From: Nocardiopsaceae bacterium
Lineage (GTDB): Bacteria; Actinomycetota; Actinomycetes; Streptosporangiales; Streptosporangiaceae
Direction of reading: 5' to 3'
Length of the DNA: 35,967 nucleotides
Assembly: GCA_017354375.1 (NCBI GenBank)
Contig: JAFMRC010000013.1
Coordinates: forward strand, 1-35,967
Shown: one piece after another, positions 2,203-35,852 of the stretch
How positions within the stretch are numbered: position 1 is the stretch's first letter
Layout: every line of letters starts with the position of its first letter
Translations under genes and position numbers: made by a program
Notes under the pieces: generated by a model
The model's database searches: none
The model's input: the letters and a program-made list of their open reading frames with translations, nothing else
What the model was told of the DNA's origin: nothing

Positions 2203-5178
2203 CTACGTGGCCGGGAAGACCTTCGAGGTCCCGATCACGTGCCCCTTCGCGTCCAGCGCCTGCAGCCGGAAGTCCTGGTAGCTCTTCCCCACCGGAATGG
2301 CCGTCTCGAAGCCTGACTTAGCCGTGGTCTTCACCGCGGCGAGATGGCTCGCGTCCGGCCCGGCCAGGACCCGCCAGGAGGCGACCTGGGTGGCGCCGTT
2401 CCAGCTCGCGTACACAGTAGCCGAACTCCCGTGCCGCCGGGCCGCCCCGCTGGGCGGGGTCAGCGGCAGCCCGGTCCAGTGACTGATCTGGATCGCCCGG
2501 TAGCTCTGATTCGACCCCGGGAGGATGCCGTCCATGAGCAGCTTGCCCGACTTGCTGTACTCCGAGAAGTACGGCGTGGAGCCCCAGCCGACGAACTCGT
2601 TGCCGTTCGGCAGGTGCTCGTCGCTGCCCATGTAGGCGGCTTCGACACCGTCGTGCTTGACCTGGCTTTCCAGGGAAGCGGTGCCGCTGGCCCGGTTGAG
2701 GTGCAGGGTCAATCCCCGGGAGGTCCCGTTCGGGGGAAGGAACGTGTCCGAGCCGACGATCTGGCAGCATGCGTCGTCGAACATGCTGATCCGGTTACCG
2801 GGCAGCATCGACACGTCATGCTGCCACTCGAACGACGCTCCCTTCCCGAACTTGAACGTGGAGTGCTTGCCGCCGAGGGTCCACTGGATCGCGCCGGTCT
2901 TGGTGTTGATCAGGTAGGCGGCCCAGGTGTTGCGCATCGACACGAGGAGGGTGTTCGGGCCGACCACGTCGATGGAGTTGACGTGGTAGACGTCCCACGG
3001 GAAGCCGTTGGACGGCGGGTTCGCGTAGGAGTCGGTGACCGGGATGTGCTTGAGCGCGTCCCATGTATGCAGCAGCTTGCCGCTGCGTAGGTCGTACTCC
3101 TGCACCGCCGAGTCGGTGATCGCGCCGTCTACCGAGCCGCCGTAGCGGGCCAGGTTCATCGGCATGTCCTTGTTCGCGGTCACCCACGCGTCGTGACCCT
3201 TGATCACCAGCGTGTGCATCGTCGGGATCCAGCCGTCGGCGCCCTTCAGGGTCGCGATCGTCTGGTAGTGCTGGTTGACGATGACGAACTCACCGCTGTT
3301 GGTCGCGCCGGTCCTGGTGACGACCCCCTGCCACCAGGACAGGGCGGGCTTCCCCTCATAGGTCTGCTCGGCCAGGTCCGAGGCGACGACGTTCTTCGGG
3401 ACCGGCCGGAACCAGACCGGCTGCATGTCGTTGCCGATCATCAGCGGGCCGCTCTGCCCGACGATCGGCGGCTTGCCCAGGTCATAGAAGTTCGACAGCA
3501 GGATGTCGCCGGGCGCCAGTTCCGACTTGCTGCCCTTCATGTCCGCGTGGATCTTGGGCGGGTGCAGCCCGGGCGCCGAGACGAAGCTGTAGGCGCCCTT
3601 GGTGGTGAAGGCGCCGATCGGGGCGCCGGAGCCACCGGCGAAGCCGAAGTCGATGCCGACGAAGGCCGCGATCACTACCAGCACCGCGGCCGGCAGCCGG
3701 AGCCGGACCCAGGCCGACTTGCCCGGCCCGGCCCCCGGTGGCAGCAGCGTGAACGTGCCCACGGCGGCCAGCAGGGCGAGGCCCGCGGCGATGAGGAACG
3801 AGACCCGGAACCCCTGGGTCAGCGCCACGGGAGTCGGCACGTTCCGCCCGATCTGGCGGCTGCTGTACCAGGTGGCGACCGAGGCGAGCACCGCGAGGCC
3901 AAGCGCGCCGCCTACCTGCCGGGAGGTGTTCACCAGGCCGGAGGCGAGGCCTGCCTGCTGGTGCCCGGCAAGCTGGGTGGCGGCGATCGTGGACGGCACG
4001 ACCGAAAGGCCGATGCCGGCCGTGACGAGCAGGCCGGGCAGGATCACGAACCCGACCGCGCTTCCGCTGGGGCCGATCCTGGCCAGCAGCAGCAGCCCCG
4101 CGCCCAGCATGACCAGGCCTCCGCCGAGTACCGGCCGGACCCCGAACTTGCCGACGAGCCGGCCGGCCTGCGAGGCCGAGAGCATGAGCACCAGCGCCAT
4201 CGGGAAGAACGCCAGCCCGGCGTTCAGCGGAGTGAGGCCCAGCACCTGCTGCATGTACAGCGAGCTGATGTACCACATCCCGAACAGCGAGGCGCTGAAC
4301 ACCAGCACGACCAGGTTGGCGGAGCGGAACGCGCCGGTGACCTCCTTCAGCGGCACCAGCGGATCCTTCGCTCGCGCCTCCACCACCGGGAACAAGCCGG
4401 TCAGGACGATGCCGCCGATGATCGGGCCGAAGGCCAGCGCGGTGGTCAGGCCATAGGTGCTGGCGTTCACGATCCCGTACGCGGTCAGCATCAGCCCGGC
4501 GGTCAGCACCAGCGCGCCGAGGAGGTCGAACCGCGCGCCGACCTTGGTCGGGCGGTCGGCGATCACCAGGATGGCGATGACGGCGGCGACGATCCCGATC
4601 GGCGGGTTGATCAGCAGCACCCAGCGCCAGCCGATCTCATAGGTGATGATCCCGCCGAACAGCGCGCCGGCCGCGCCGCCGACGCCGTTCATCGCGCCCC
4701 ACAACCCGATCGCCCGGTGACGGGCGGGTCCTGGCGGGAACGACGAGGTGATGGCCGCGAGCGATCCGGCCGCCATCAGGGCCCCGCTCAGGCCCTGGAC
4801 CGCGCGCGCGATCACCAGCATTCCCTGGCTTGCCGACATGCCGCCAGCCAGGGAGGCGATCGCGAACAGGACGAGGCCCGCCGCCAGCGTGCGCCGCTGG
4901 CCGAGCTGGTCGGCCGCGCGCCCGCCCAGCATCAGGAAGCCGGCGAACACGATCGCGTAGGCGATGACCACCCACTGCAGGTTGGCCGACGAGAACCCGA
5001 GGCTGCCCTGGATCGAGGGCAGGGCCACGTTGACGATGGTCAGGTCGAGGATGACCATGAACTGCGCGACGCAGCACACGGCCAGCAGCCACCTCTGGCG
5101 TGCGTCACGGGTTCCCTCGGCTGGGCCCTGCTCACGGTCTTCGGTCCGGCGCCTGATCGCGCCGCCAAGAAAATTCAT
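2203..5178 (-). CDS. MFS (DHA2) exporter fused to arylsulfotransferase
   Basis: A 991-residue two-part protein. Residues ~28-480 form a 14-helix DHA2-type MFS drug/H+ antiporter: LDLTIVNVALP (44-54, motif D) and GGRAADQLGQRR (85-96, motif A). The antiporter motif C region reads GGAAGALFGG, with the usual proline replaced by alanine. A 15th hydrophobic helix follows (~495-514). Residues ~520-930 match the actinobacterial arylsulfotransferase (ASST) beta-propeller family: GAFTTKGAYSFVSAPGLHPP, PVWFRPVP, YHVNSI, SMRNTWAAYL, LGGKHS, WQHDV and FDDACC. A short beta-rich tail (~940-991) resembles an Fn3 module. With 14 helices both MFS ends lie inside, so helix 15 would place the ASST domain outside the membrane. 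ASST enzymes move sulfate between phenolic compounds without PAPS; substrates here are unknown. A sulfotransferase gene lies upstream. SD is weak (GGAAG, 12 bases). Confidence 0.88.
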   Translation of the reverse strand: MNFLGGAIRRRTEDREQGPAEGTRDARQRWLLAVCCVAQFMVILDLTIVNVALPSIQGSLGFSSANLQWVVIAYAIVFAGFLMLGGRAADQLGQRRTLAAGLVLFAIASLAGGMSASQGMLVIARAVQGLSGALMAAGSLAAITSSFPPGPARHRAIGLWGAMNGVGGAAGALFGGIITYEIGWRWVLLINPPIGIVAAVIAILVIADRPTKVGARFDLLGALVLTAGLMLTAYGIVNASTYGLTTALAFGPIIGGIVLTGLFPVVEARAKDPLVPLKEVTGAFRSANLVVLVFSASLFGMWYISSLYMQQVLGLTPLNAGLAFFPMALVLMLSASQAGRLVGKFGVRPVLGGGLVMLGAGLLLLARIGPSGSAVGFVILPGLLVTAGIGLSVVPSTIAATQLAGHQQAGLASGLVNTSRQVGGALGLAVLASVATWYSSRQIGRNVPTPVALTQGFRVSFLIAAGLALLAAVGTFTLLPPGAGPGKSAWVRLRLPAAVLVVIAAFVGIDFGFAGGSGAPIGAFTTKGAYSFVSAPGLHPPKIHADMKGSKSELAPGDILLSNFYDLGKPPIVGQSGPLMIGNDMQPVWFRPVPKNVVASDLAEQTYEGKPALSWWQGVVTRTGATNSGEFVIVNQHYQTIATLKGADGWIPTMHTLVIKGHDAWVTANKDMPMNLARYGGSVDGAITDSAVQEYDLRSGKLLHTWDALKHIPVTDSYANPPSNGFPWDVYHVNSIDVVGPNTLLVSMRNTWAAYLINTKTGAIQWTLGGKHSTFKFGKGASFEWQHDVSMLPGNRISMFDDACCQIVGSDTFLPPNGTSRGLTLHLNRASGTASLESQVKHDGVEAAYMGSDEHLPNGNEFVGWGSTPYFSEYSKSGKLLMDGILPGSNQSYRAIQISHWTGLPLTPPSGAARRHGSSATVYASWNGATQVASWRVLAGPDASHLAAVKTTAKSGFETAIPVGKSYQDFRLQALDAKGHVIGTSKVFPAT

Positions 5179-5289: not shown

Positions 5290-5997
5290 TCAGCTAGCAG
5301 CGGGCGTTTCCCGGCGCTGCTCCTGCCAGCTGACCAGGGTCGCGATGGCGGCGTCGTTCAGCAGGTCGGCGAACATCGCCGAGTCGTTCACGTGCGGCAC
5401 CGGCTCCGATGGCACCGGGGTCTGCAGGAACTCGCACAGCGGCCCCCAGCCGTCGGCCGGCGACCACACTAGCAGCCGCTCCGGCGGGACGGTCCGGCGG
5501 ACCTCGTCGTTGTAGTGCTCCATACCCGCGATCAGCGAGCTCTCGTCGTGGTAGCTGGACGGGCCGAGCAGGCCGCTCTTCTCCCACATCGCGGTCAGCA
5601 GGTTGCAGTAGAGAGCCCAGTCCGGGTCGAGCCGGCCCCGGGCCGAGGACAGGTCGTGCATCAGGTTGTCGCCGTAGAGCGTGGCCCAGATCGTGTCGCG
5701 CATGCTGCGCGCCCAGGACTCGCCGCTACGCACGCTGAGCAGGACCTTGGCGTCCGGGTAGACGTCCATCAGCTCCCGGTAGAAGTAGGCCCCTGGCCAG
5801 TCGACTATCGACTGGTGGCCGTCGAGGAGCCGGTCCCAGTCGGCGTTTCCCTCGAAGGCATCGGACCACAGCCGTATCGTGCTGAGGTCGGCGAAGATGT
5901 TGGCCATGTGGTAACAGGGCCCGACTCCGAGCATCTCCAGCGCTATCTTCTGCGTGAGCGTGGCCGTGCGGGGCAGGCCTGCTCCGATGAGCCTCAT
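5290..5997 (-). CDS. Sulfotransferase family protein (PAPS-type)
   Basis: A 235-residue cytosolic protein of the bacterial sulfotransferase family related to PF17784. The N-terminus IGAGLPRTATLTQKIALEML is the 5'-phosphosulfate-binding loop (usual form G-x-x-R-T-G-T-x-S-L; here R-T-A-T-L-T). It is followed by GPCYHM, DWPGAYFYREL and YPDAKVLLSVRSGESWARSM, the last matching the 3'-phosphate-binding 'LxxRxPxxWxxS' segment. Family members transfer sulfuryl groups from PAPS to hydroxyls; the acceptor here is unknown. The start is supported by a good Shine-Dalgarno (GGGAAGGGGAG) four bases before the ATG. It lies upstream of the MFS-arylsulfotransferase gene on the same strand, so the two could form a sulfation/export unit, although a repeat-rich 111-base gap separates them. 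Confidence 0.85.
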   Translation of the reverse strand: MRLIGAGLPRTATLTQKIALEMLGVGPCYHMANIFADLSTIRLWSDAFEGNADWDRLLDGHQSIVDWPGAYFYRELMDVYPDAKVLLSVRSGESWARSMRDTIWATLYGDNLMHDLSSARGRLDPDWALYCNLLTAMWEKSGLLGPSSYHDESSLIAGMEHYNDEVRRTVPPERLLVWSPADGWGPLCEFLQTPVPSEPVPHVNDSAMFADLLNDAAIATLVSWQEQRRETPAAS

Positions 5998-6023
5998 CCG
6001 GCTCCCCTTCCCGTTGCTTCTTG

Positions 6024-6139
6024 ATACTTCGCTAGCATGGGCTAAAGTATGCTCTGCCCGGAGCCTTGTCCCGCCGGGATTCCGCAGGATTGATGCAGAT
6101 TGTTACAGTGGCCTCTTAACATTTGTTACGGCAGTGGCC
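6024..6139. promoter_or_regulatory. Candidate regulatory region of the sulfotransferase gene
   Basis: Two signals lie upstream of the sulfotransferase start (5997, minus). An inverted repeat ATACTT (6024-6029)/AAGTAT (6045-6050) has an inner pair TAGC/GCTA. Farther upstream is a direct repeat, TTGTTAC-AG-TGGCC (6100-6113) and TTGTTAC-GGCAG-TGGCC (6123-6139). The first could be a repressor operator and the second a pair of activator sites. No regulator gene lies nearby. The call rests only on symmetry and position. Confidence 0.3.
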
Positions 6140-6228
6140 CCTTTACGTACCCTGTCGCGCACTGACAGTAACAGGTCGCCCCGACGGAGCCCGATAGAAA
6201 ACGGAAACAAGCCTCCCTCGGCCCTCCC

Positions 6229-7005
6229 TCAGCGCCGGGCCTGGCCGGCCAGGGATTCCAGCCGCCGGACGCGCTCGCCCGTCGGCGGGTGGGTGGGGAA
6301 CAGCCGCCCGAAGCCCTCGATCGAGAACGGATGGGCGATCATCAGGTGGCCGGCCGCGCCCACCAGGCCGCGGGCTGGCAGCGGCAGGTCCGTGGCCGAC
6401 TCCGAGATCTTCCGCAGCGCGCTCGCCAGGGCCATCGGGTCGCCGGCCAGCAGCGCGCCGTCGAAGTCCGCCCTGAATTCACGCCCTGAGGGCGTGATCA
6501 CCGCCACCAGCAGCGCCACCGCCGGCACCGGCAAGAACGAGACCAGCGCCGCCAGCCCCGCCGACCACGACGACACCAGCGTGTCCCGCCGGGACACGTG
6601 CGCCAGCTCGTGCGCCAGCACGGCCCGCAGCTCGGCCAGCGAGAGCGAGCGCAGCAACCCCTCGGTGCAGCAGACCGCGGCGGTGCGCGAACTGCAGCAC
6701 ACGGTCAGGATGTTCGGCTGCTGGGCAGGAGCCACGAACAGCCGCGGCACCGGCAGCCGGGCATCCCGGCATAGCTCCCGGACCAGCCCGAACAGCGCCG
6801 GATTCTCCACCTCGCTCACGGGACGGGCGCGCAGGGCAGTCAGCACCATCCGTTCGGACTGAAAATAGATAAGCCATCCGAATGCGAAGAGCAGGGCGCT
6901 GGCCAGGGCAAGTCCGGCGAGCCCGAGCCACGCGAAGCCAGCGAGCAAGACCAGGCCGCACAGCACCCCGGCCAGCGCCAATGCCCGAATACCGTAGCCG
7001 CGCAC
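6229..7005 (-). CDS. htpX: HtpX-like M48 membrane metalloprotease
   Basis: A 258-residue M48-family zinc protease, slightly shorter than typical HtpX (~280-290). Two N-terminal membrane helices (about 8-48) are followed by the zinc site HELAH (132-136), a further hydrophobic segment (about 147-171) and the third zinc ligand in REFRAD (E176). The family tail FPTHPPTGERVRRLESLA closes the protein. HtpX enzymes cleave misfolded membrane proteins at the cytoplasmic face. The GTG start at 7005 has GGGAGGGG seven bases upstream. One oddity: the strand region before the active site reads TVCCSSRTAAVCC, with two Cys-Cys pairs where family members usually have a single or no cysteine. It appears monocistronic, and no stress operator is recognisable. 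Confidence 0.9.
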   Translation of the reverse strand: MRGYGIRALALAGVLCGLVLLAGFAWLGLAGLALASALLFAFGWLIYFQSERMVLTALRARPVSEVENPALFGLVRELCRDARLPVPRLFVAPAQQPNILTVCCSSRTAAVCCTEGLLRSLSLAELRAVLAHELAHVSRRDTLVSSWSAGLAALVSFLPVPAVALLVAVITPSGREFRADFDGALLAGDPMALASALRKISESATDLPLPARGLVGAAGHLMIAHPFSIEGFGRLFPTHPPTGERVRRLESLAGQARR

Positions 7006-7444
7006 GGCCGAACCCCTCCCTCACGCATCGGCCGCGGCCGCCGGGAGCCGGAGAGAACGTCAGGCTCCAGCGGAATGCGAACCGCAGCTAGCCGGTTAAC
7101 GACCATGTAGGGACGCGCGTTCCGCGGCTAGCGTGACGCTCGTTGGGGCTAGGGTTAAGGATCGCTGAGGATATCGGCGCATCAGAACCTGTCCCGCGCC
7201 TGTCCTGCTCATGCGGCCGGGCGGTTGTTACGGCCAGATAACGTGGCGGGCACCACACGCGGGACTAAGGCAACTGAATACCCTCTCGACATAGAATCAA
7301 AACGTGTCCTGCCACCTGAGGAAACCGAGGAACCCGAGGAACCCGAGGGACCGAAGGAACCCAAGGACCCGACCAACGACCCGCCCGTAGGGAAGGGGTG
7401 CTGTGCGGGGGCACCCAGCCGCGTGCGGAGGAGGCTTCAACGCT
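7006..7444. other. Intergenic region, divergent htpX/korA, with 9-bp tandem repeat
   Basis: 439 bases between divergent htpX and korA. It holds six imperfect copies of a 9-base purine-rich unit (consensus aacccgagg) at 7313-7366, a short inverted repeat GTTA-(8)-TAAC around 7226-7241, and a possible -10 TAGAAT at 7292-7297 for korA. An open frame from TTG 7225 covers the repeats (reading as Glu-Pro units), but it has no Shine-Dalgarno and runs into korA out of frame, so I do not call it a gene. Confidence 0.5.
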
Positions 7445-9310
7445 GTGACCAAGCAGGTCCAGGAGCTAGATCACGTCATTATTCGCTTCGCGGGGGACTC
7501 CGGTGACGGGATGCAGCTCACCGGGGACAGGTTCACCCAGGAGACCGCGATCTTCGGGAACGACCTGTCGACCCTCCCGAATTTCCCGGCCGAGATCCGC
7601 GCGCCCGCCGGCACGCTCCCGGGTGTCAGCAGCTTCCAGCTCCACTTCGCGGACCACGACATCCTCACCCCGGGCGACGCACCGGACGTGCTGGTCGCGA
7701 TGAACCCCGCGGCGCTGGCGGCCAACCTCAAGGACCTGCCGCGCGGCGCCGACCTGATCGTCAACACCGACGAGTTCACCAAGCGCAACCTGTCGAAGGC
7801 CGGCTACGACGCGAACCCGCTCGACGACGACTCGATCGCGCAGGCCTACAGCCTGCACCCGGTGCCGCTGACCTCGCTGACCGTCAAGGCCCTCGAGGAC
7901 ATCGACATCACCCGGAAGGACGCCGAGCGCGCCAAGAACATGTTCGCCCTCGGACTGCTGTCCTGGCTGTACGGCCGGCCCGCCGAGGGAACGCTGGCGT
8001 TCCTCGAAGCCAAGTTCGGCAAGAAGCCAGAGGTCTACAAGGCGAACGTGACCGCCTTCCAGGCCGGCTGGAGCTACGGCGAGACTACCGAGGATTTCTC
8101 GGTCCGGTACGAGGTGAAGGCGGCCTCCCTCGCCCGGGGGAAATATCGCAATATAACGGGAAATACGGCACTTTCGTACGGCCTTATCGCCGCGTCGAAG
8201 CTGTCGAAGCTGCCGTTGTTCCTCGGCTCCTACCCGATCACCCCGGCCTCCGACGTGCTGCACGAACTCGCCAAGCACAAGCGGTTCGGCGTGCGGACGT
8301 TCCAGGCCGAGGACGAGATCGCGGCGGTCGGGTCGGCGCTGGGGGCCGCGTTCGGCGGATCCCTCGCCGTTACCACCACGAGTGGCCCCGGCATGGTGCT
8401 CAAGGCGGAGACGGTGGGCCTGGCCGTGTCGGTCGAATTGCCGCTGATCGTCTGCGACATCCAGCGGGCCGGGCCGTCCACCGGCATGCCGACGAAGACG
8501 GAGCAGGCCGACCTGCTGATGGCGCTCTTCGGCCGCAACGGGGAGTCCCCGGTACCGGTGGTCGCCGCGGCGTCGCCGTCGGACTGCTTCCACGCGGCCA
8601 TCGAGGCGGCGCGGATCGCGGTCACCTACCGGACGCCGGTCGTGCTGCTGTCCGACGGGTACCTGGCAAACGGCTCCGAACCATGGCGCATTCCGGAAAT
8701 TTCCTCTTTGCCGGATCTGTCGGCCGAGTTCGCCTTCACGACATCCCCCAACCCGGCGGACAACGGCGGCGGCTTCCAGCCGTTCCGCCGCGATCCGGCC
8801 ACGCTCGCCCGGCCGTGGGCGATCCCCGGCACCCCGGGCCTGGAGCACCGGATCGGCGGCATCGAGAAGGCCGACGGCGCCGGGTCGATCTCCTATGACC
8901 CGGTCAACCACGACCTGATGGTCCGGACCCGCCAGGCGAAGATCGACGGCATCGCCGCGTCCATCCCCGACCTGGAGGTGGACGACCCGGACGGCGACGC
9001 CCGCGTGCTGGTGCTCGGCTGGGGCTCCACCTACGGCTCGATCGGCGCCGCGGCCCGCCGGGTCCGCCGCGCCGGGCACCCGGTCGCCCAGGCGCACCTG
9101 CGGCACCTGAACCCGTTCCCGGCCAACCTGGGCGACGTGCTCCGCCGCTACGACAAGATCCTGGTTCCCGAGATCAACCTCGGCCAGCTCGCGCTGCTGC
9201 TGCGCGGCAAGTTCCTGGTCGACGTGATCTCCTACAACCGGGTGCGCGGGCTTCCGTTCCGCGCCGCGGAGCTCGCCGAGGCAATCGAGGAAGTCATAAC
9301 CCATGCCTAA
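7445..9310 (+). CDS. korA: 2-oxoacid:ferredoxin oxidoreductase, alpha subunit (gamma-alpha fusion)
   Basis: A 621-residue subunit of 2-oxoglutarate (or other 2-oxoacid):ferredoxin oxidoreductase, which oxidatively decarboxylates the oxoacid to acyl-CoA with ferredoxin as acceptor. The N-terminal ~190 residues are the gamma domain (FAGDSGDGMQLTGDRFT near the start). The rest is the alpha/pyrimidine domain with the YPITP motif, TTSGPG and QRAGPSTGMPTKTEQADLL. I chose the GTG at 7445 (VTKQVQELD), matching the family's usual N-terminus, with AGGAGG ten bases upstream; an ATG at 7403 would add 14 non-conserved residues. The stop overlaps korB by eight bases. In actinomycetes this enzyme can work beside or in place of 2-oxoglutarate dehydrogenase. 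Substrate preference is inferred from the family. Confidence 0.93.
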   Translation: MTKQVQELDHVIIRFAGDSGDGMQLTGDRFTQETAIFGNDLSTLPNFPAEIRAPAGTLPGVSSFQLHFADHDILTPGDAPDVLVAMNPAALAANLKDLPRGADLIVNTDEFTKRNLSKAGYDANPLDDDSIAQAYSLHPVPLTSLTVKALEDIDITRKDAERAKNMFALGLLSWLYGRPAEGTLAFLEAKFGKKPEVYKANVTAFQAGWSYGETTEDFSVRYEVKAASLARGKYRNITGNTALSYGLIAASKLSKLPLFLGSYPITPASDVLHELAKHKRFGVRTFQAEDEIAAVGSALGAAFGGSLAVTTTSGPGMVLKAETVGLAVSVELPLIVCDIQRAGPSTGMPTKTEQADLLMALFGRNGESPVPVVAAASPSDCFHAAIEAARIAVTYRTPVVLLSDGYLANGSEPWRIPEISSLPDLSAEFAFTTSPNPADNGGGFQPFRRDPATLARPWAIPGTPGLEHRIGGIEKADGAGSISYDPVNHDLMVRTRQAKIDGIAASIPDLEVDDPDGDARVLVLGWGSTYGSIGAAARRVRRAGHPVAQAHLRHLNPFPANLGDVLRRYDKILVPEINLGQLALLLRGKFLVDVISYNRVRGLPFRAAELAEAIEEVITHA

Positions 9311-11992: not shown

Positions 11993-12106
11993 CAGGCCTC
12001 CTCATCCGATCCCTGTGTACCGCGTGAACCACCCGCGTCAACCACGATACGCGGCCCCCTGTTCCGCCCCCGCCCCGCCGAGGTCGCCGACCGTCGGCGC
12101 ACGGCT

Positions 12107-12160
12107 GTGCCGAATGCGCGCTTGGGCTCGCTCTAGCTGGCCCGAATGCGCACCTGGCAC
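12107..12160. repeat. 54-bp composite palindromic element, copy A
   Basis: The element is symmetric end to end with paired blocks separated by short unpaired ones: GTGCC/GGCAC, GCGC/GCGC, GGGC/GCCC and GCT/AGC. The spacers have equal length on each side (4, 4 and 2 bases), with a two-base centre. The same element occurs at 16705-16758 and 16782-16835, and half of it at 35823-35852, all in the same orientation. A G-rich tail (gatggggcgggcggg, 12165-12179) follows. It lies in the gap between msrA and the RHH/MazF pair. Confidence 0.8.
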
Positions 12161-12194
12161 GTGCGATGGGGCGGGCGGGCACCATCCCTTGCCG

Positions 12195-12206
12195 TATACT
12201 TTCTGT
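12195..12206 (+). promoter_or_regulatory. Leaderless -10 promoter of the toxin-antitoxin pair
   Basis: TATACT at 12195-12200 is a near-consensus -10 and ends six bases before the antitoxin ATG (12207), with no Shine-Dalgarno. Transcription should start at or beside the A of the start codon. No good -35 is visible at the expected distance. Confidence 0.5.
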
Positions 12207-12440
12207 ATGGCGGATCCGATTACATTTCGCCCGACAGCCGAGGATGCGAAGAACCTCGCCATCCTCACGGCTGACGGCACCAGCCCCACCCATGCCCTCC
12301 GGCACGCGCTGGAACTCGCCGCGCACGAAAAGCGCCAAGCCGACCTGCGCGAGGACGCCGCGCGGCTGGCGGCCAACCCCGACTACCAAGCCGAGATCCG
12401 GGCGGTGCGCGAAGAACTGGACGAGCTTCGTGCGTGGTGA
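12207..12440 (+). CDS. RHH-type antitoxin of a MazEF-like pair
   Basis: A 77-residue protein. The N-terminus looks like a ribbon-helix-helix DNA-binding domain: strand ITFRPT, helix AEDAKNLAIL, the turn DGTSPT, then helix HALRHALELAAHEKRQ. The C-terminal half (about 45-77) is strongly charged and helical (NPDYQAEIRAVREELDELRAW), the usual toxin-wrapping tail. The ATG at 12207 follows a -10 box directly, so it is probably leaderless. Its TGA (12438-12440) lies inside the start of the toxin gene, giving an 11-base overlap. In family terms it neutralises the toxin and represses its own promoter. Confidence 0.82.
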   Translation: MADPITFRPTAEDAKNLAILTADGTSPTHALRHALELAAHEKRQADLREDAARLAANPDYQAEIRAVREELDELRAW

Positions 12441-12747
12441 CGTCTACCGCCTCAAGAAGCCACGGACCGCGCAAGGGCACGAGCAGCAGGGCCAGCGGTA
12501 CGCCGTCGTCGTCCAGGCCAGTGCCTACGATCACCTGTCCACCTGGCTCGTGGCCCCGACGACCACCAAGTCCTTCGGCTCCATGATCCACCCGACGATC
12601 GACCTCTTCGGCCAGGACGTACAGGTTCTCGTGGAGCAGACCACCGCCGTCGATCCCCAGCGCCTCGGCGACTTCGCCGACCGCCTTAACCCGGGGGAAC
12701 TCATGGAGGTTAACATCGCGCTCCGCGCCGTGCTCGACCTGGAATAG
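12430..12747 (+). CDS. MazF/PemK-like endoribonuclease toxin
   Basis: A 105-residue protein of the MazF/PemK/CcdB fold. The start RGDVYRLKKPR is the first beta strand; GQRYAVVVQASAYDHLSTWLVAPTT is the core with the family's '(R/Y)P/A-VVV' strand; VLVEQTTAVDPQRLGDF matches the conserved 'xxxDQ(x)xxxDxxRL' block; LMEVNIALRAVLDLE is the terminal helix. MazF toxins cleave mRNA at short sequence motifs. I chose GTG 12430, just before RGDVYR; it overlaps the antitoxin so that both are made from one transcript. The glutamate in VEQTT sits where many MazF proteins have DQ. Unlike the toxin at 161-481, this gene is intact. Confidence 0.88.
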   Translation: MRGDVYRLKKPRTAQGHEQQGQRYAVVVQASAYDHLSTWLVAPTTTKSFGSMIHPTIDLFGQDVQVLVEQTTAVDPQRLGDFADRLNPGELMEVNIALRAVLDLE

Positions 12748-12883
12748 AACCGTCGCCCTCCCCAGACGGCCAGCCGCTCTAACGGCCGCAGGCGGGCCGA
12801 TTTTACGGGAGGGGTCCCGAGGCTTGCTGGTATTAATCACCATCAAACGGTCAGCCCATGGCGGCACGCGGAAGCGGGTGAGT

Positions 12884-15049
12884 ATGGGGCGACTCTACGG
12901 GCGCGGTAAGGTCATCGACTTCGTTGAGGCAGCGCTGAAGTATGACCGCCCCCTCACCCGGCCAATGCCGATCCTGCTGCTGGTCGGTCCGAGGGGCAGT
13001 GGCGGGAGCGCGCTGCTGGCCGGGCTCTGGGAGGAATTCGGGTACGACGCCCCCTGCGCACGCCTTGACCTGGCCGACGCCGAAGAAGTGGCGGACGTCA
13101 TGCTGACCGCCATGCAGGGACTCCTCCGGCACGTCTGGGGAGTCCGGCAGCTTCGGTTCCCGCGGCTGAGGCTCGCGGTCAAGGCGCTGAGTTTCGACGA
13201 CGATGGCCACGGCCGAGTGGCCTTCGACAGGTACATGCGGGCAGGCGAGCGGACGGCCAAGACAAGGTCCACGCTGCAGGACTGGGTGGATAGGGTGTCG
13301 CGGCTGCTGCTTCGTTCCCCTGAACAGCAACTCATCGTCACGATCGTGGCACGGCTGCTCGGCTGGACGTTGCTGTCCGGCATCGATCGCCACCGTGACC
13401 GGATCATCCTGCGCTGGTTCACGGAGGAAAGCGACGTGGCGGGCGGGAGCGGCTTTGATCCGCTGTGGCGCCTGTACCGCTGGCAGCACGAGAATGATGA
13501 GGACAAGCGGTACAGGGCCGACAAGACGTTGTGCGACGCATTTCTCACGGATATGCGGACGGACTACAACGACGTCGGGATCTGGCACGACCGGCGGACC
13601 AGGAATCCGGCCCTGTACCTCGACAACACCGACAGTCGGATCGGGAGGCGCCTGCTCGGGCTCCTTGAGGAGTGTCGCAGGAAGGGGGGTGATCTGGACG
13701 GGAAGCCTGCCGACCCGCTGCTGGTGGCGGCTGTCCAGCATCGCCCGCCATCCCCCGAGGCGGGCACTCCCATCCGGGTCACCAAGGACGAGACCGAGGA
13801 GGAAAAGCTCAGCTTCACCGAGTGGCGCAGGACCGTCAACGCGGCCGGCCCTCTCATCCTCTGGTATCCGGTATACCTATCCGCCCTCGACGACAGCGAT
13901 GTCACCACGATGGTATCGAGCCGGAGGCTCGGCATCGGCGACGGCATGCACCGTGACGCGGACTTCGTCCGTGAGCTCGCCAGCGCGCACCCGGAGGCTA
14001 CCGCCCGGCTGGCCAGCCTCCTTCACAAGCTGAGTCCCTCCGCCGATCCGCGGCTGCTGCTGGACCAGCGCATCCCGCCAGTACTGCGGGATGAATGGCA
14101 GGCCCACAGGGCGAGCACCACGGTCGGGGACTACCTGCTCAAGCAGGCGTTCGCCGACGACCTGCGGATGTTGCCGGACGGCAGCATCGACGCGGACGGC
14201 AACGCGATGCTGGACGCGATGGCCGTTGTCGCGGCGACGCCGGGCTTCCGCCTTGGCGCATCCCAGGCCGCGCTCAACTTCCTCGAGTGGAACGCGGTCA
14301 CGGCCGTGGCCGCACGTGACCGGCTTACCCAGACGCTGTGGCTAGCTAGACCCGGCGAAACGATGTGGCTAGCCGAGCCCGAGTGGCGAGCCGAGCATGA
14401 CGACGATGAACCGCGCCTGCACCCGCTTGCCGCGTTGCTGCTTCGGCACTGGCTTGCGCGGAGCCCCGATAAGTGGACCGGCGCACATGAAGGCTACGTC
14501 GTGCACTACTCGGATCCGGATGAAGCTGCGCTGCGGCACCACCACAAGCTCGCGCTCGTCGTGCCGGATGCGCGCTGGACAGGCGCCATGCCGGGTGCGC
14601 GCGAGGCCGGCATCGAGCCGTCGCGGATGGATCAGCTGACCGACGTCATAACTTTCCTCGACCAGGAGCGGGAGTGCGGTCCCGACCGAGAACAGGGACC
14701 CGGTCGGGACCGGGATCGGGAGTCCGGCGATTCCCATACCCGAGACTGGCTGGACGTCCTGGACACGGTCGTCGCCGCACCGAACCGGTTGCGGACCACC
14801 CATCACCCGGAGGTGTTCGTCAGGGCGCTGGCCGGCCCAGAGGAACCCGGAAACCGCCGCCAGGTGATCGCCAGGCTGGCCGTCGCACGGTGGCTCTTCA
14901 ACGACAAGCTTTTTGATCCCACCTGCCAGCTCAAGCGGCTTATCGCCGATGAGTATCAGCACCTGGCCCAGTTGCCCGGTAGCGACGGTGACCTGCTCCT
15001 CGAAGAGGAAGCTAAGTACCGCGAGATTCAGCCTGATTGGGGAAATTGA
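12884..15049 (+). CDS. Large P-loop ATPase-like protein with degenerate Walker A
   Basis: A 721-residue protein of unknown function. Near the N-terminus PILLLVGPRGSGGSALLAGL is a P-loop in which the essential Walker A lysine is glycine (G35-P-R-G-S-G-G41-S42). ALYLDNTDSRIGRRLL (~243-258) has the shape of a Walker B strand (hydrophobics then D-N). No named domain is recognisable elsewhere. Around residues 600-615 there is an Arg/Asp/Glu-rich low-complexity stretch. There is no signal peptide; one hydrophobic segment (LIVTIVARLLGWTLL) is not clearly transmembrane. I chose ATG 12884 (MGRLYGRGKV) because the first 20 residues from an upstream start at 12824 look non-coding. The stop overlaps the next gene, so the two are coupled. 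Such ATP-binding/substrate-binding-like pairs occur in other actinomycetes as far as I recall, without an assigned role. Confidence 0.7.
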   Translation: MGRLYGRGKVIDFVEAALKYDRPLTRPMPILLLVGPRGSGGSALLAGLWEEFGYDAPCARLDLADAEEVADVMLTAMQGLLRHVWGVRQLRFPRLRLAVKALSFDDDGHGRVAFDRYMRAGERTAKTRSTLQDWVDRVSRLLLRSPEQQLIVTIVARLLGWTLLSGIDRHRDRIILRWFTEESDVAGGSGFDPLWRLYRWQHENDEDKRYRADKTLCDAFLTDMRTDYNDVGIWHDRRTRNPALYLDNTDSRIGRRLLGLLEECRRKGGDLDGKPADPLLVAAVQHRPPSPEAGTPIRVTKDETEEEKLSFTEWRRTVNAAGPLILWYPVYLSALDDSDVTTMVSSRRLGIGDGMHRDADFVRELASAHPEATARLASLLHKLSPSADPRLLLDQRIPPVLRDEWQAHRASTTVGDYLLKQAFADDLRMLPDGSIDADGNAMLDAMAVVAATPGFRLGASQAALNFLEWNAVTAVAARDRLTQTLWLARPGETMWLAEPEWRAEHDDDEPRLHPLAALLLRHWLARSPDKWTGAHEGYVVHYSDPDEAALRHHHKLALVVPDARWTGAMPGAREAGIEPSRMDQLTDVITFLDQERECGPDREQGPGRDRDRESGDSHTRDWLDVLDTVVAAPNRLRTTHHPEVFVRALAGPEEPGNRRQVIARLAVARWLFNDKLFDPTCQLKRLIADEYQHLAQLPGSDGDLLLEEEAKYREIQPDWGN

Positions 15050-16617
15050 GCTTGCCCGGAAATCGCAGTTTGCCCAGGAGGCTCTGGCAATTCCGCCAGC
15101 GACTGCCGAGGCGACCTAGGATCGTCATCAACTGCATGGGCGCGCTGCTGCTCGTCGCCGCCGTCTACGGCGGCTACAAAGCGATACCGCCCCTTCTCCC
15201 CTCCAGCACCTGCGCCAGCGGCCCGTCGACGTACCTGGTGCCCGCCGGGCCGACCGGCGACTGCGTTGGTTTCACCAGCGGCAGCTACGTCTTCGACCCG
15301 TCCCTCACGGCGGTCGAGCGCGACATCCAGCGGGAAGACCAGCGGGTCACCACCCAGCACCCGGGGGACTACGTGAGCGTCGTGATGCTGCTGCCCATCT
15401 CCGCCAAGGACGGCAGCATCATGTCGATGACTGACGTGCTCAACCACCTTCGCGGCGCGTACACCGCCCAGCACTACGCCAACCGGCACGATATCGACGG
15501 CATCAGCCCCTACATCCGGATCCTGATCGGCAACGCCGGGTACCAGGCCAACCAGTGGAAGGCGGCAACCGGCATCATCAAGGGGGCCATCGCCAGCCAG
15601 CGCATAGCCGCGGTGACCGGGCTCGCGGTGAGCCTCGCCACGACGCGGGACGCCGCCCTCGCGCTGACCAGGGCGGGGATTCCCGTGGTCGGCTCGACCG
15701 TATCGTCGGACTACTTCGACGACATCCGGAACATGATCAGGGTCTCGCCCAGCAACAGGGACGAGATCTCGGTCGCCGACGCATATGCCAGGGCACGCTT
15801 CAGCCGGGCCATCCTCGTCGAGGACGAGAACGACGGTGACATCTACGACTCCACCCTCGTCACCGGCTTCGAGAAGTTCCCCGACGCCACTCACCAGATC
15901 ATCGGTAAGGAACCCTACGACACCAGTTACCGTGACAGGCCGCATTCGGCCCAGGCCGAAGGGAGGGGTGATCAGGTTGTCCGGAACCGGATCAGCCAGA
16001 TGATCCCCGATATATGCCTCGCGCAGCCCGCCGTCGTGCTGTTCGCCGGGCGCGGCCGCGACCTGGCGGCACTCGTCGGCGATCTCGCCGACCGGCCGTG
16101 CCTCGGCAAGCCGATCACGGTCATCACCGGCGACGACGTCGTCAACATGACCTACTCCTCAAGGGTGCGCCAGGGCCTCGCCAGCGGTGTCACCATCGAC
16201 TACGCTGGCGTGGCCATCCCGGCCGAGTGGTCGGCGGGAACGGGCCGCGCGGTCACCGAGGGACGGCGGGGCTTCACCACCTTCAAGCACGCCTACCAGG
16301 GACTCTTCCCTGGCACCCCGCTCATCAGCGGAGACGGCATGCTGTCCTACGACGCGACCCTGACGGCCATCTCGGCGATCCGGCTCACCGATCTGCGGCA
16401 GCCCGCGCCGTCCGCGGTGGTCGCCGAGTTCCCCGCGCTGCAGGGGGCGCACACCGTGCTCGGCGCCAGCGGCCCGCTCGCGTTCACCGCGGACTCGCGG
16501 AGCCGGTTCGGCAGCAACCCGGTGGGAAAGGCGATCCCGATGCTGCGCGTCGGCCCGCACGGCAGTCCGAGGTTCCTCACGCTCAACTGGCCCAATGGCC
16601 AACCCCCGGCCTACTGA
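15037..16617 (+). CDS. Membrane-anchored type-1 periplasmic-binding-like protein
   Basis: Up to 526 residues. A basic N-terminus is followed by one membrane helix (about 31-48, IVINCMGALLLVAAVYGGYK) and then a large extracytoplasmic domain resembling LivK/Peripla_BP_6 receptors: SGSYVFDP, SVVMLLPIS, LRGAYTAQHYAN, AAVTGLAVS, GIPVVGSTVSSDYF, RVSPSNRDE, VVLFAGRGRDLAALVGDLA and GPLAFTADSRSRFGSNPVGK. There is no lipobox and no cleavage site, so it should stay anchored. Cysteines at TCASG and GDCVG may pair. No permease or ABC ATPase gene is nearby, which argues against ordinary transport and for ligand sensing coupled to the upstream P-loop protein. The start is uncertain: TTG 15037, TTG 15046 (TTGA overlap, GGGG just upstream) or TTG 15052. 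Confidence 0.78.
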   Translation: MGKLSLPGNRSLPRRLWQFRQRLPRRPRIVINCMGALLLVAAVYGGYKAIPPLLPSSTCASGPSTYLVPAGPTGDCVGFTSGSYVFDPSLTAVERDIQREDQRVTTQHPGDYVSVVMLLPISAKDGSIMSMTDVLNHLRGAYTAQHYANRHDIDGISPYIRILIGNAGYQANQWKAATGIIKGAIASQRIAAVTGLAVSLATTRDAALALTRAGIPVVGSTVSSDYFDDIRNMIRVSPSNRDEISVADAYARARFSRAILVEDENDGDIYDSTLVTGFEKFPDATHQIIGKEPYDTSYRDRPHSAQAEGRGDQVVRNRISQMIPDICLAQPAVVLFAGRGRDLAALVGDLADRPCLGKPITVITGDDVVNMTYSSRVRQGLASGVTIDYAGVAIPAEWSAGTGRAVTEGRRGFTTFKHAYQGLFPGTPLISGDGMLSYDATLTAISAIRLTDLRQPAPSAVVAEFPALQGAHTVLGASGPLAFTADSRSRFGSNPVGKAIPMLRVGPHGSPRFLTLNWPNGQPPAY

Positions 16618-16648
16618 CCCTCCTGAGCCTCATCCCGATGCCCCTCAC

Positions 16649-16710
16649 CCGATCACCCGAGCGTGCCGCCCGATCACCCGAGCGTGCCACCCGATCACCC
16701 GAGCGTGCCG
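16649..16710. repeat. 21-bp tandem repeat, three units
   Basis: Three copies of a 21-base unit, ccgatcacccgagcgtgcc plus two variable bases, start at 16649, 16670 and 16691. The last unit runs straight into the 5' arm (gtgcc) of the palindromic element at 16705. It lies downstream of the binding-protein gene (stop 16617). Confidence 0.85.
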
Positions 16711-16758
16711 AACGCGCACTTGGGCTCGCTCTAGCAGACCCGAACGCGCACCTGGCAC
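16705..16758. repeat. 54-bp composite palindromic element, copy B
   Basis: Same block layout as copy A at 12107-12160. Differences: both GAAT spacers have become GAAC, gctt is actt, and the right inner block is ACCC instead of GCCC, which costs one pair. A G-rich tail gatggggatggggg follows (16763-16776). Confidence 0.8.
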
Positions 16759-16781
16759 GTTAGATGGGGATGGGGGTGAGT

Positions 16782-16835
16782 GTGCCAAATGCGCGCTTGG
16801 GCTCGCTCTAGCTGGCCCGAATGCGCACCTGGCAC
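16782..16835. repeat. 54-bp composite palindromic element, copy C
   Basis: Almost identical to copy A; the main change is aaat for gaat in the first spacer. It begins exactly 77 bases after copy B, and both copies carry the same type of G-rich tail, so B and C look like a tandem duplication of a ~77-base unit (palindrome plus tail). Confidence 0.82.
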
Positions 16836-16848
16836 GCTAGGTGGCGAT

Positions 16849-16895
16849 GGGGGTGGGGGTGGGGGTGGCGATGGGGGGCGGGGGGCGGGGGGCGG
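16849..16895 (+). other. G-run tract, possible G-quadruplex
   Basis: Six or more runs of 5-6 G separated by single T or C bases lie between copy C and the stop of the minus-strand polyprenyl synthase gene (16899), in the convergent gap. The layout fits a very stable G-quadruplex on the plus DNA strand; the minus-strand transcript would be C-rich. It may mark the end of both convergent transcripts, but this is inference. Confidence 0.6.
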
Positions 16896-16898
16896 TAA

Positions 16899-35822: not shown

Positions 35823-35852
35823 GGCCCGAATGCGCGTTTGGGCTCGCTCTAG
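35823..35852. repeat. Partial copy (D) of the palindromic element
   Basis: Shares cgaatgcgcg-t-ttgggctcgctctagc with the left half and centre of copies A-C, then diverges. It lies about 60 bases upstream of the menG start, outside any gene. Confidence 0.7.

Follow-up and report, generated by a model that had tools for sequence, protein, structure and literature searches.

In contig JAFMRC010000013.1 of a Nocardiopsaceae bacterium (assembly GCA_017354375.1; positions 1 to 35,967, the whole analysed stretch of 35,967 nucleotides, are called the window), we found evidence for two coupled genes that are best read, at a probability of about 0.7, as a two-component transmembrane receptor, in which gene 2 provides the sensor and gene 1 its dedicated inner partner. 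With high probability the pair belongs to no transporter and represents a bacterial receptor type that has not yet been described. Its features are the following:

12884..15049, + strand: gene 1, a 721-aa STAND-like P-loop protein, the putative inner partner; start ATG, or possibly GTG at 12878
12986..13009, + strand: Walker A position, GPRGSGGS by sequence, with Lys replaced by Gly, as in 12/12 subfamily members
13613..13627, + strand: retained Walker B-like strand LYLDN (family consensus LLLDN)
15037..16617, + strand: gene 2, a 526-aa one-helix protein with a LivK-type outer domain; start TTG at 15037, 15046 or 15052
15121..15177, + strand: membrane-spanning helix at residues 29-47 of gene 2, from hydropathy and sequence
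15184..16614, + strand: outer ligand-binding domain of predicted LivK/LivJ fold; sites S199, S223, Y270 and D342; cysteines C76, C327 and C355

As judged from comparison of homologous loci, gene 1 and gene 2 form a unit. Where the P-loop protein has an open reading frame (ORF) of its own, a substrate-binding protein (SBP) domain follows 3' on the same strand for 33 of 35 such ORFs in the fetched loci, and the distance from the P-loop stop to the SBP is 75-220 nt in nearly all 33, except for a few partial ORFs. The two exceptions are a contig end and a Streptomyces locus without an SBP gene. At L179, from Streptomyces, the P-loop gene has been kept and the SBP gene is gone from an otherwise syntenic locus, a natural loss. 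Natural fusions were also found: a P-loop domain with intact Walker motif, the helix and the SBP lie in a single ORF in L030 and L168, and in about 50 further fusions the SBP is joined to a shortened N-domain of the gene 1 cluster, which has lost Walker A, has often gained extra helices and for the most part retains AFLxDLR and DPLLVVA. Furthermore, the two proteins co-diverge, with a distance correlation, uncorrected for species phylogeny, of r = 0.74 across 29 pairs (best of 1000 permutations, 0.20), and the trees of these 29 pairs have 13 of 26 splits in common. A preliminary description, made from the letters of the window, had proposed that the genes are coupled, and the adjacency for 33 of 35 separate P-loop ORFs together with the natural fusions corroborated this; homologues that are rarely adjacent, which would have spoken against it, were not what we found. 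It had also read a fixed stoichiometry out of the gene overlap. The tight coupling is safe, but the stoichiometry claim is too strong, because the overlap of 13 nt holds for the first TTG (15037) as the start of gene 2, and TTG 15046 and 15052 are as plausible, leaving an overlap of 4 nt or none.

The outer part of the proposed receptor is the better defined one. Gene 2 begins with an Arg-rich N-terminus followed by a single hydrophobic helix (residues 29-47, by hydropathy and sequence), and the positive-inside rule predicts that the N-terminus is inside. Direct reading of gene 2 revealed no lipobox, and the anchor is this one internal helix. A Pfam scan of gene 2 gave no match. The AlphaFold model of the outer domain, built on a 17-sequence alignment, reached a predicted local distance difference test score (pLDDT) of 84.8 and a predicted template-modelling score (pTM) of 0.89, and its best PDB matches in Foldseek were the Leu/Ile/Val-binding proteins 4n0q, 4q6b and 3td9 (target template-modelling score 0.78-0.82), followed by calcium-sensing (CaSR) and metabotropic glutamate (mGluR5) receptors. 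The outer-domain profile alone matched 4mlc with E 6e-12 and LIVBP with E 3e-5. One helix, no lipobox and a LivK-type outer domain is what had been described at the outset, and profile, fold and hydropathy all agree with it. In the profile alignment S199, S223, Y270 and D342 of gene 2 correspond to Ser79, Thr102, Tyr150 and Glu226 of LIVBP, which we take to be its amino-acid contacts. Among 116 relatives, Ser or Thr is present at 199 in 95% and at 223 in 98%, an aromatic residue at 270 in 99%, and Asp or Glu at 342 in 73%. Because these contact positions are conserved, the ligand is probably amino-acid-like. Moreover, the relatives of gene 2 all have cysteine C327, and almost all have C76 and C355, which would suit a location outside the cytoplasm. 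Two loci show other arrangements of this domain: in L094 the SBP gene is in tandem duplicate (5565-7118 and 7456-9012) behind a single P-loop gene, and L182 (1524-4115, - strand) encodes an 863-aa protein with TPR and a LivK-type domain, whose C-terminus matches the membrane region of neurotransmitter-gated channels.

A LivK fold would also suit ordinary transport, with gene 2 as the orphan SBP of a LivK importer and gene 1 as an unusual ABC-like ATPase, and a 951-aa fused relative does carry the RefSeq name 'ABC transporter substrate-binding protein'. We consider this very unlikely. Gene 1 has no ABC ATPase match above cut-off, no ABC ATPase or permease adjoins the pair among the window genes, and among the 86 neighbours surveyed around split pairs there is no recurrent ABC ATPase, permease, PemK toxin or specific defence family; the recurrent ones are cytochrome c assembly, AHSA1, deaminase and dioxygenase genes. 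This agrees with the original remark that permease and ABC ATPase are missing, and no standard transport operon recurs in other genomes. The single-helix anchor, and the fusions to TIR, kinase and STAND domains, also argue against transport.

These fusions point to a receptor whose inner module is exchanged. Before the same helix and SBP, Pfam finds TIR (L044, L146, L171, L172), TIR plus kinase (L103, L104), kinase (L167), DUF4062 (L152, L154, L159) or EAD1 (L169, L175), and because these inner domains differ, it is, on the domain assignments, the sensor that stays constant and the receiver that varies. In L103 (3540-7037, + strand) and L104 (2665-5601, - strand) one protein combines TIR, a protein kinase, a transmembrane helix and a LivK-like outer domain. 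According to one report (PMC13174449), DUF4062 is a TIR-like NADase, and the three proteins with DUF4062, helix and LivK-like domain are possibly NADase receptors under the control of an external ligand. In a FastTree phylogeny of 109 SBPs, the window falls within a clade of 40, mostly split pairs, in which the TIR-kinase fusions are nested; the TIR/kinase label changes five times on this tree, an approximate count with long branches meeting in places. The grouping of the inner partner with STAND-like NTPases and with signalling or effector domains is compatible with the earlier suggestion that the device signals inside the cell.

The signal could also flow in reverse, the inner (pseudo-)NTPase sensing, for example, invader nucleic acid, and the one-helix protein serving as anchor or output. 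A role as nucleic-acid receptors has been proposed for inactive STAND domains (PMC8195603), and Kaur et al. (PMC7159879) place the periplasmic-binding protein (PBP) in a variable, effector-like position. Such a reversal appears improbable to us, since a conserved ligand pocket and conserved cysteines would make little sense in a mere anchor, conservation within the subfamily of the window is higher for the SBP (48-51%) than for the P-loop protein (39-44%), and it is the inner module that is swapped while the SBP stays.

Gene 1 and its relatives have the motifs FPRL, AFLxDLR, LLLDN and DPLLVVA in common. About two thirds of the separate P-loop genes keep GxxGxGK[ST]; in the remaining ones the Lys is changed to Gly, Ala or Arg, or the next residue to Gly. 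The Walker A signature of STAND NTPases, GxxxxGK[ST], is canonical in most sister pairs and is not matched by gene 1 of the window, whose ORF, length of 721 residues, coordinates and lysine-free GPRGSGGS are all as first described. A sister protein (L027) matches NPHP3_N at E 8e-8, above the Pfam cut-off, and another (L168) has AAA_16 at the cut-off with weak NB-ARC and NACHT matches; gene 1 itself reaches AAA_16 at E 6e-4, below cut-off. We use 'STAND-like' as a family assignment, because the gene 1 model is middling (pLDDT 66; past residue 290 mostly helical, with low confidence) and Foldseek returned only generic AAA+ cores for it. Against the PADLOC profiles the sole match of gene 1 was mad8, at E 0.046 and in the P-loop region, and by such profile matches the pair belongs to no known anti-phage defence system. 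A membrane-inserting helix in the separate P-loop proteins, considered from window residues 149-167, was rejected for the group, as no more than 2 of 31 exceed a simple threshold of hydropathy there; in the same region 36 of 52 fused proteins exceed it.

The lysine-free P-loop is, on the alignments, a fixed trait of one subfamily, most sister pairs being canonical. An orthologous pair in the same order is located on the megaplasmid pSCAT of Streptantibioticus cattleyicolor, with 43.5% (P-loop) and 50% (SBP) identity, an ORF overlap of 13 nt and the identical string GPRGSGGS; because conservation at this level goes with conserved order, the window pair is more than a chance arrangement. Ten further pairs from Streptomycetaceae all have Gly at the Lys position (G[PS]RGSGG[ST] in nine, APLGGGGS in one). 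An eleventh Streptomycetaceae locus, L284, is by sequence the S. cattleyicolor pair itself, so the subfamily amounts to 12 pairs, those of the window, of S. cattleyicolor and of the ten further Streptomycetaceae. Decay or sequencing error as the source of the degenerate P-loop is ruled out by Gly in 12/12 members. Lys 100 of gene 1 is invariant across the subfamily (L274-L284 and the window) and absent from the canonical proteins compared, and is possibly the residue that compensates for the lost Walker A lysine. Since the window alone among 347 genomes of its order has the subfamily, acquisition from outside is suggested, from a donor that the divergence is too great to name. In the main Streptomycetaceae genus of the subfamily, two DUF4139/DUF4140 genes directly follow the pair in seven genomes (L274-L278, L281, L283) and in five an SBP_bac_1 gene lies ahead of the pair; these neighbours could be extra components or mere synteny.

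We hypothesise that gene 2, anchored by its single helix, would bind a small, probably amino-acid-like ligand through a Venus-flytrap domain outside the cell. The ligand would close the LivK domain, and the helix would relay the change, probably via dimerisation, the mode of other receptors with such a fold. Gene 1 would be the dedicated receiver and scaffold at the membrane, taking up the conformational signal and passing it on by assembly with itself or with a downstream effector. Because the P-loop Lys is replaced by Gly throughout its subfamily, gene 1 probably lacks a nucleotide switch and would act as a nucleotide-independent or weakly nucleotide-binding scaffold; the sister pairs keep a normal P-loop. 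Some observations weigh against a two-component receptor: eight SBP homologues have no recognised inner partner, no effector domain is visible in either gene of the pair, the co-divergence may partly follow species phylogeny, and gene 1 combines weak Pfam matches with a middling model, its STAND label being weakly indicated through homologues.

What such a receptor would switch on can be read in two ways, which we weigh about equally, namely defence or cell death on the one hand and a nutrient or developmental output on the other. Of 395 class genomes, 99 gave a match to the SBP profile and 31 to the P-loop profile, and strong matches came only from genomes of about 4.8 Mb or more; a scan of 296 genomes from the phylum at E 1e-20 gave no match outside the class. 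The Streptomyces-type sensor was represented by 56 named loci. The large genomes fit multicellular actinobacteria and could thus accord with a conflict device (defence or altruistic death), in which an outer danger or kin signal would lead to arrest or death via the STAND-like partner. We hold this as a tentative possibility. The same sensor is fused to the conflict-type modules TIR, DUF4062 and EAD1, the window pair sits in a lineage-specific insertion alongside a toxin pair, and System 4 of Kaur et al. 2020 (PMC7159879) includes caspase components in which a PBP follows a helix. At the same time, no specific defence genes recur beside the pairs, many pairs and fusions are in conserved housekeeping neighbourhoods, phage records searched with gene 1 gave no match, and amino-acid sensing is no obvious infection signal. 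The preliminary description had spoken of a signalling or defence device; the inner partner does group with signalling and effector domains, and for defence the neighbourhoods offer no support, the pairs lying outside defence islands and many of them in stable housekeeping sites.

Physiological sensing of nutrients or developmental cues, tuning metabolism or differentiation as in GlnH-GlnX-PknG, is likewise conceivable and likewise short of an even chance. The amino-acid-type binding site and the kinase fusions would suit it, and binding-protein-driven amino-acid signalling has a precedent in an actinobacterium (PMC9769921). It would also account for stable sites by citrate synthase, PNPOx, aminotransferase or cytochrome c assembly genes; in the family of the window, fused copies occupy a conserved site between citrate synthase/PNPOx and aminotransferase genes. 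In that family the Walker-less fused form, often with two extra helices, occurs in L035, L036, L037, L039, L040, L043 and others. On the other hand, TIR, DUF4062 and EAD1 fusions would be unusual for nutrient sensing, and the distribution is patchy (99/395 class genomes), with empty sites in congeners.

The surroundings of the pair in the window comprise these features:

11993..16898, no strand: 4.9-kb segment flanked by msrA and a polyprenyl synthase gene, against 65-590 bp in congeners
12103..12179, + strand: 77-nt dispersed repeat, copy 1, at the left edge of the segment
12207..12440, + strand: small antitoxin-like ORF, 77 aa, overlapping the MazF gene; no antitoxin family match; same insertion, not a receptor part
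12430..12747, + strand: MazF/PemK toxin gene (PemK_toxin E 4e-17); same insertion, not a receptor part
16701..16854, + strand: 77-nt dispersed repeat, two tandem copies, at the right edge of the segment

Because the flanking genes lie 65-590 bp from each other in four congeners, one lineage-specific 4.9-kb insertion holds both the MazF pair and the receptor pair. The arrangement at 12207-12747 is that of MazEF, a PemK/MazF toxin gene with an overlapping antitoxin ORF upstream, and the intact MazF-like pair noted earlier directly upstream of gene 1 is real (E 4e-17) but incidental. One insertion bounded by dispersed repeats and common to both pairs might suggest a single four-gene device, which we find scarcely credible: no MazF or antitoxin homologue occurs at 11 orthologous pair loci, and PemK_toxin does not recur near split pairs. 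The MazF pair was rejected as a part of the system on these grounds. The core of the 77-nt repeat, CGCNCTTGGGCTCGCTCTAGC, has about 30 genome copies (0-1 mismatch) and none in a reversed control, and is a dispersed intergenic element; besides the copies at 12103-12179 and 16701-16854, one is at window position 35833. With about 30 near-identical cores across the genome, the repeats were ruled out as proof of a mobile cassette. Other tested neighbours in the window match ordinary chromosomal families. At 2203-5178 (- strand), a 991-aa protein combines an MFS transporter domain with an arylsulfotransferase (ASST) domain, next to a sulfotransferase gene.

Most of what is known of bacterial STAND and TIR proteins concerns sensing inside the cell. 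It is possible, and we put it forward with reserve, that the family constitutes widespread modular immune-type receptors, in which a LivK domain senses an extracellular amino-acid-like signal and passes it to STAND, TIR, NADase-like or kinase outputs, with one subfamily permanently without the P-loop Lys: an outside-sensing counterpart of nucleotide-binding leucine-rich-repeat (NLR) proteins. If true, a constant outward sensor with an exchangeable inner module would provide multicellular actinobacteria with a cell-surface receptor counterpart, and a small extracellular molecule is predicted to control STAND, TIR, kinase, DUF4062 and EAD1 outputs. The lysine-free subfamily would further be a natural test of STAND signalling without nucleotide exchange. 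Such a receptor class is easily overlooked, because RefSeq lists at least one fused relative under the name 'ABC transporter substrate-binding protein'. In the literature covered, which included PMC7159879, PMC8195603 and PMC13174449 and left subscription journals mostly outside the search, we found no description of a system of STAND, helix and LivK, and nowhere were the TIR, kinase, DUF4062 and EAD1 fusions and the STAND-like pair united as one receptor family.

Compared with known systems, gene 2 resembles LivK/LivJ (type I PBPs, Peripla_BP_6/ANF_receptor) in fold, ligand-site residues and profile match, but has an uncleaved helix anchor instead of a lipobox, extra conserved cysteines and an AGR motif, and comes without permease or ABC ATPase. 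GlnH-GlnX-PknG of Corynebacterium (PMC9769921) likewise joins an outside binding protein to a cytoplasmic regulator for amino-acid signalling in an actinobacterium; there, however, binding and membrane proteins are separate, the output is a kinase and there is no STAND-like partner. System 4 (EACC1/caspase; Kaur et al. 2020, PMC7159879) is also a membrane-associated, two-gene actinobacterial system, in which some caspase proteins have a transmembrane helix and an outer periplasmic-binding domain, and it has EAD1 in common with some of the SBP fusions; in the pair described here a STAND-like P-loop protein takes the inside position and the SBP is what stays constant, and neither gene has a Pfam match to an EACC1, caspase or cyclase component. 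With STAND NTPases (NACHT, NB-ARC, NPHP3_N, nSTAND) gene 1 has in common the P-loop, the LLDN strand and, by its low-confidence model, perhaps a long helical C-terminal part, and a sister matches NPHP3_N above cut-off, whereas gene 1 is without the Walker A Lys and its sensor would be a separate membrane protein instead of C-terminal repeats. Finally, mGluR, CaSR and the natriuretic peptide receptors also have a type I PBP fold outside (from Foldseek and weak ANF_receptor matches) and an effector inside, but the present family is bacterial, crosses the membrane with a single helix and carries inner STAND, TIR, kinase, DUF4062 or EAD1 modules in place of a G-protein-coupled receptor or cyclase domain.

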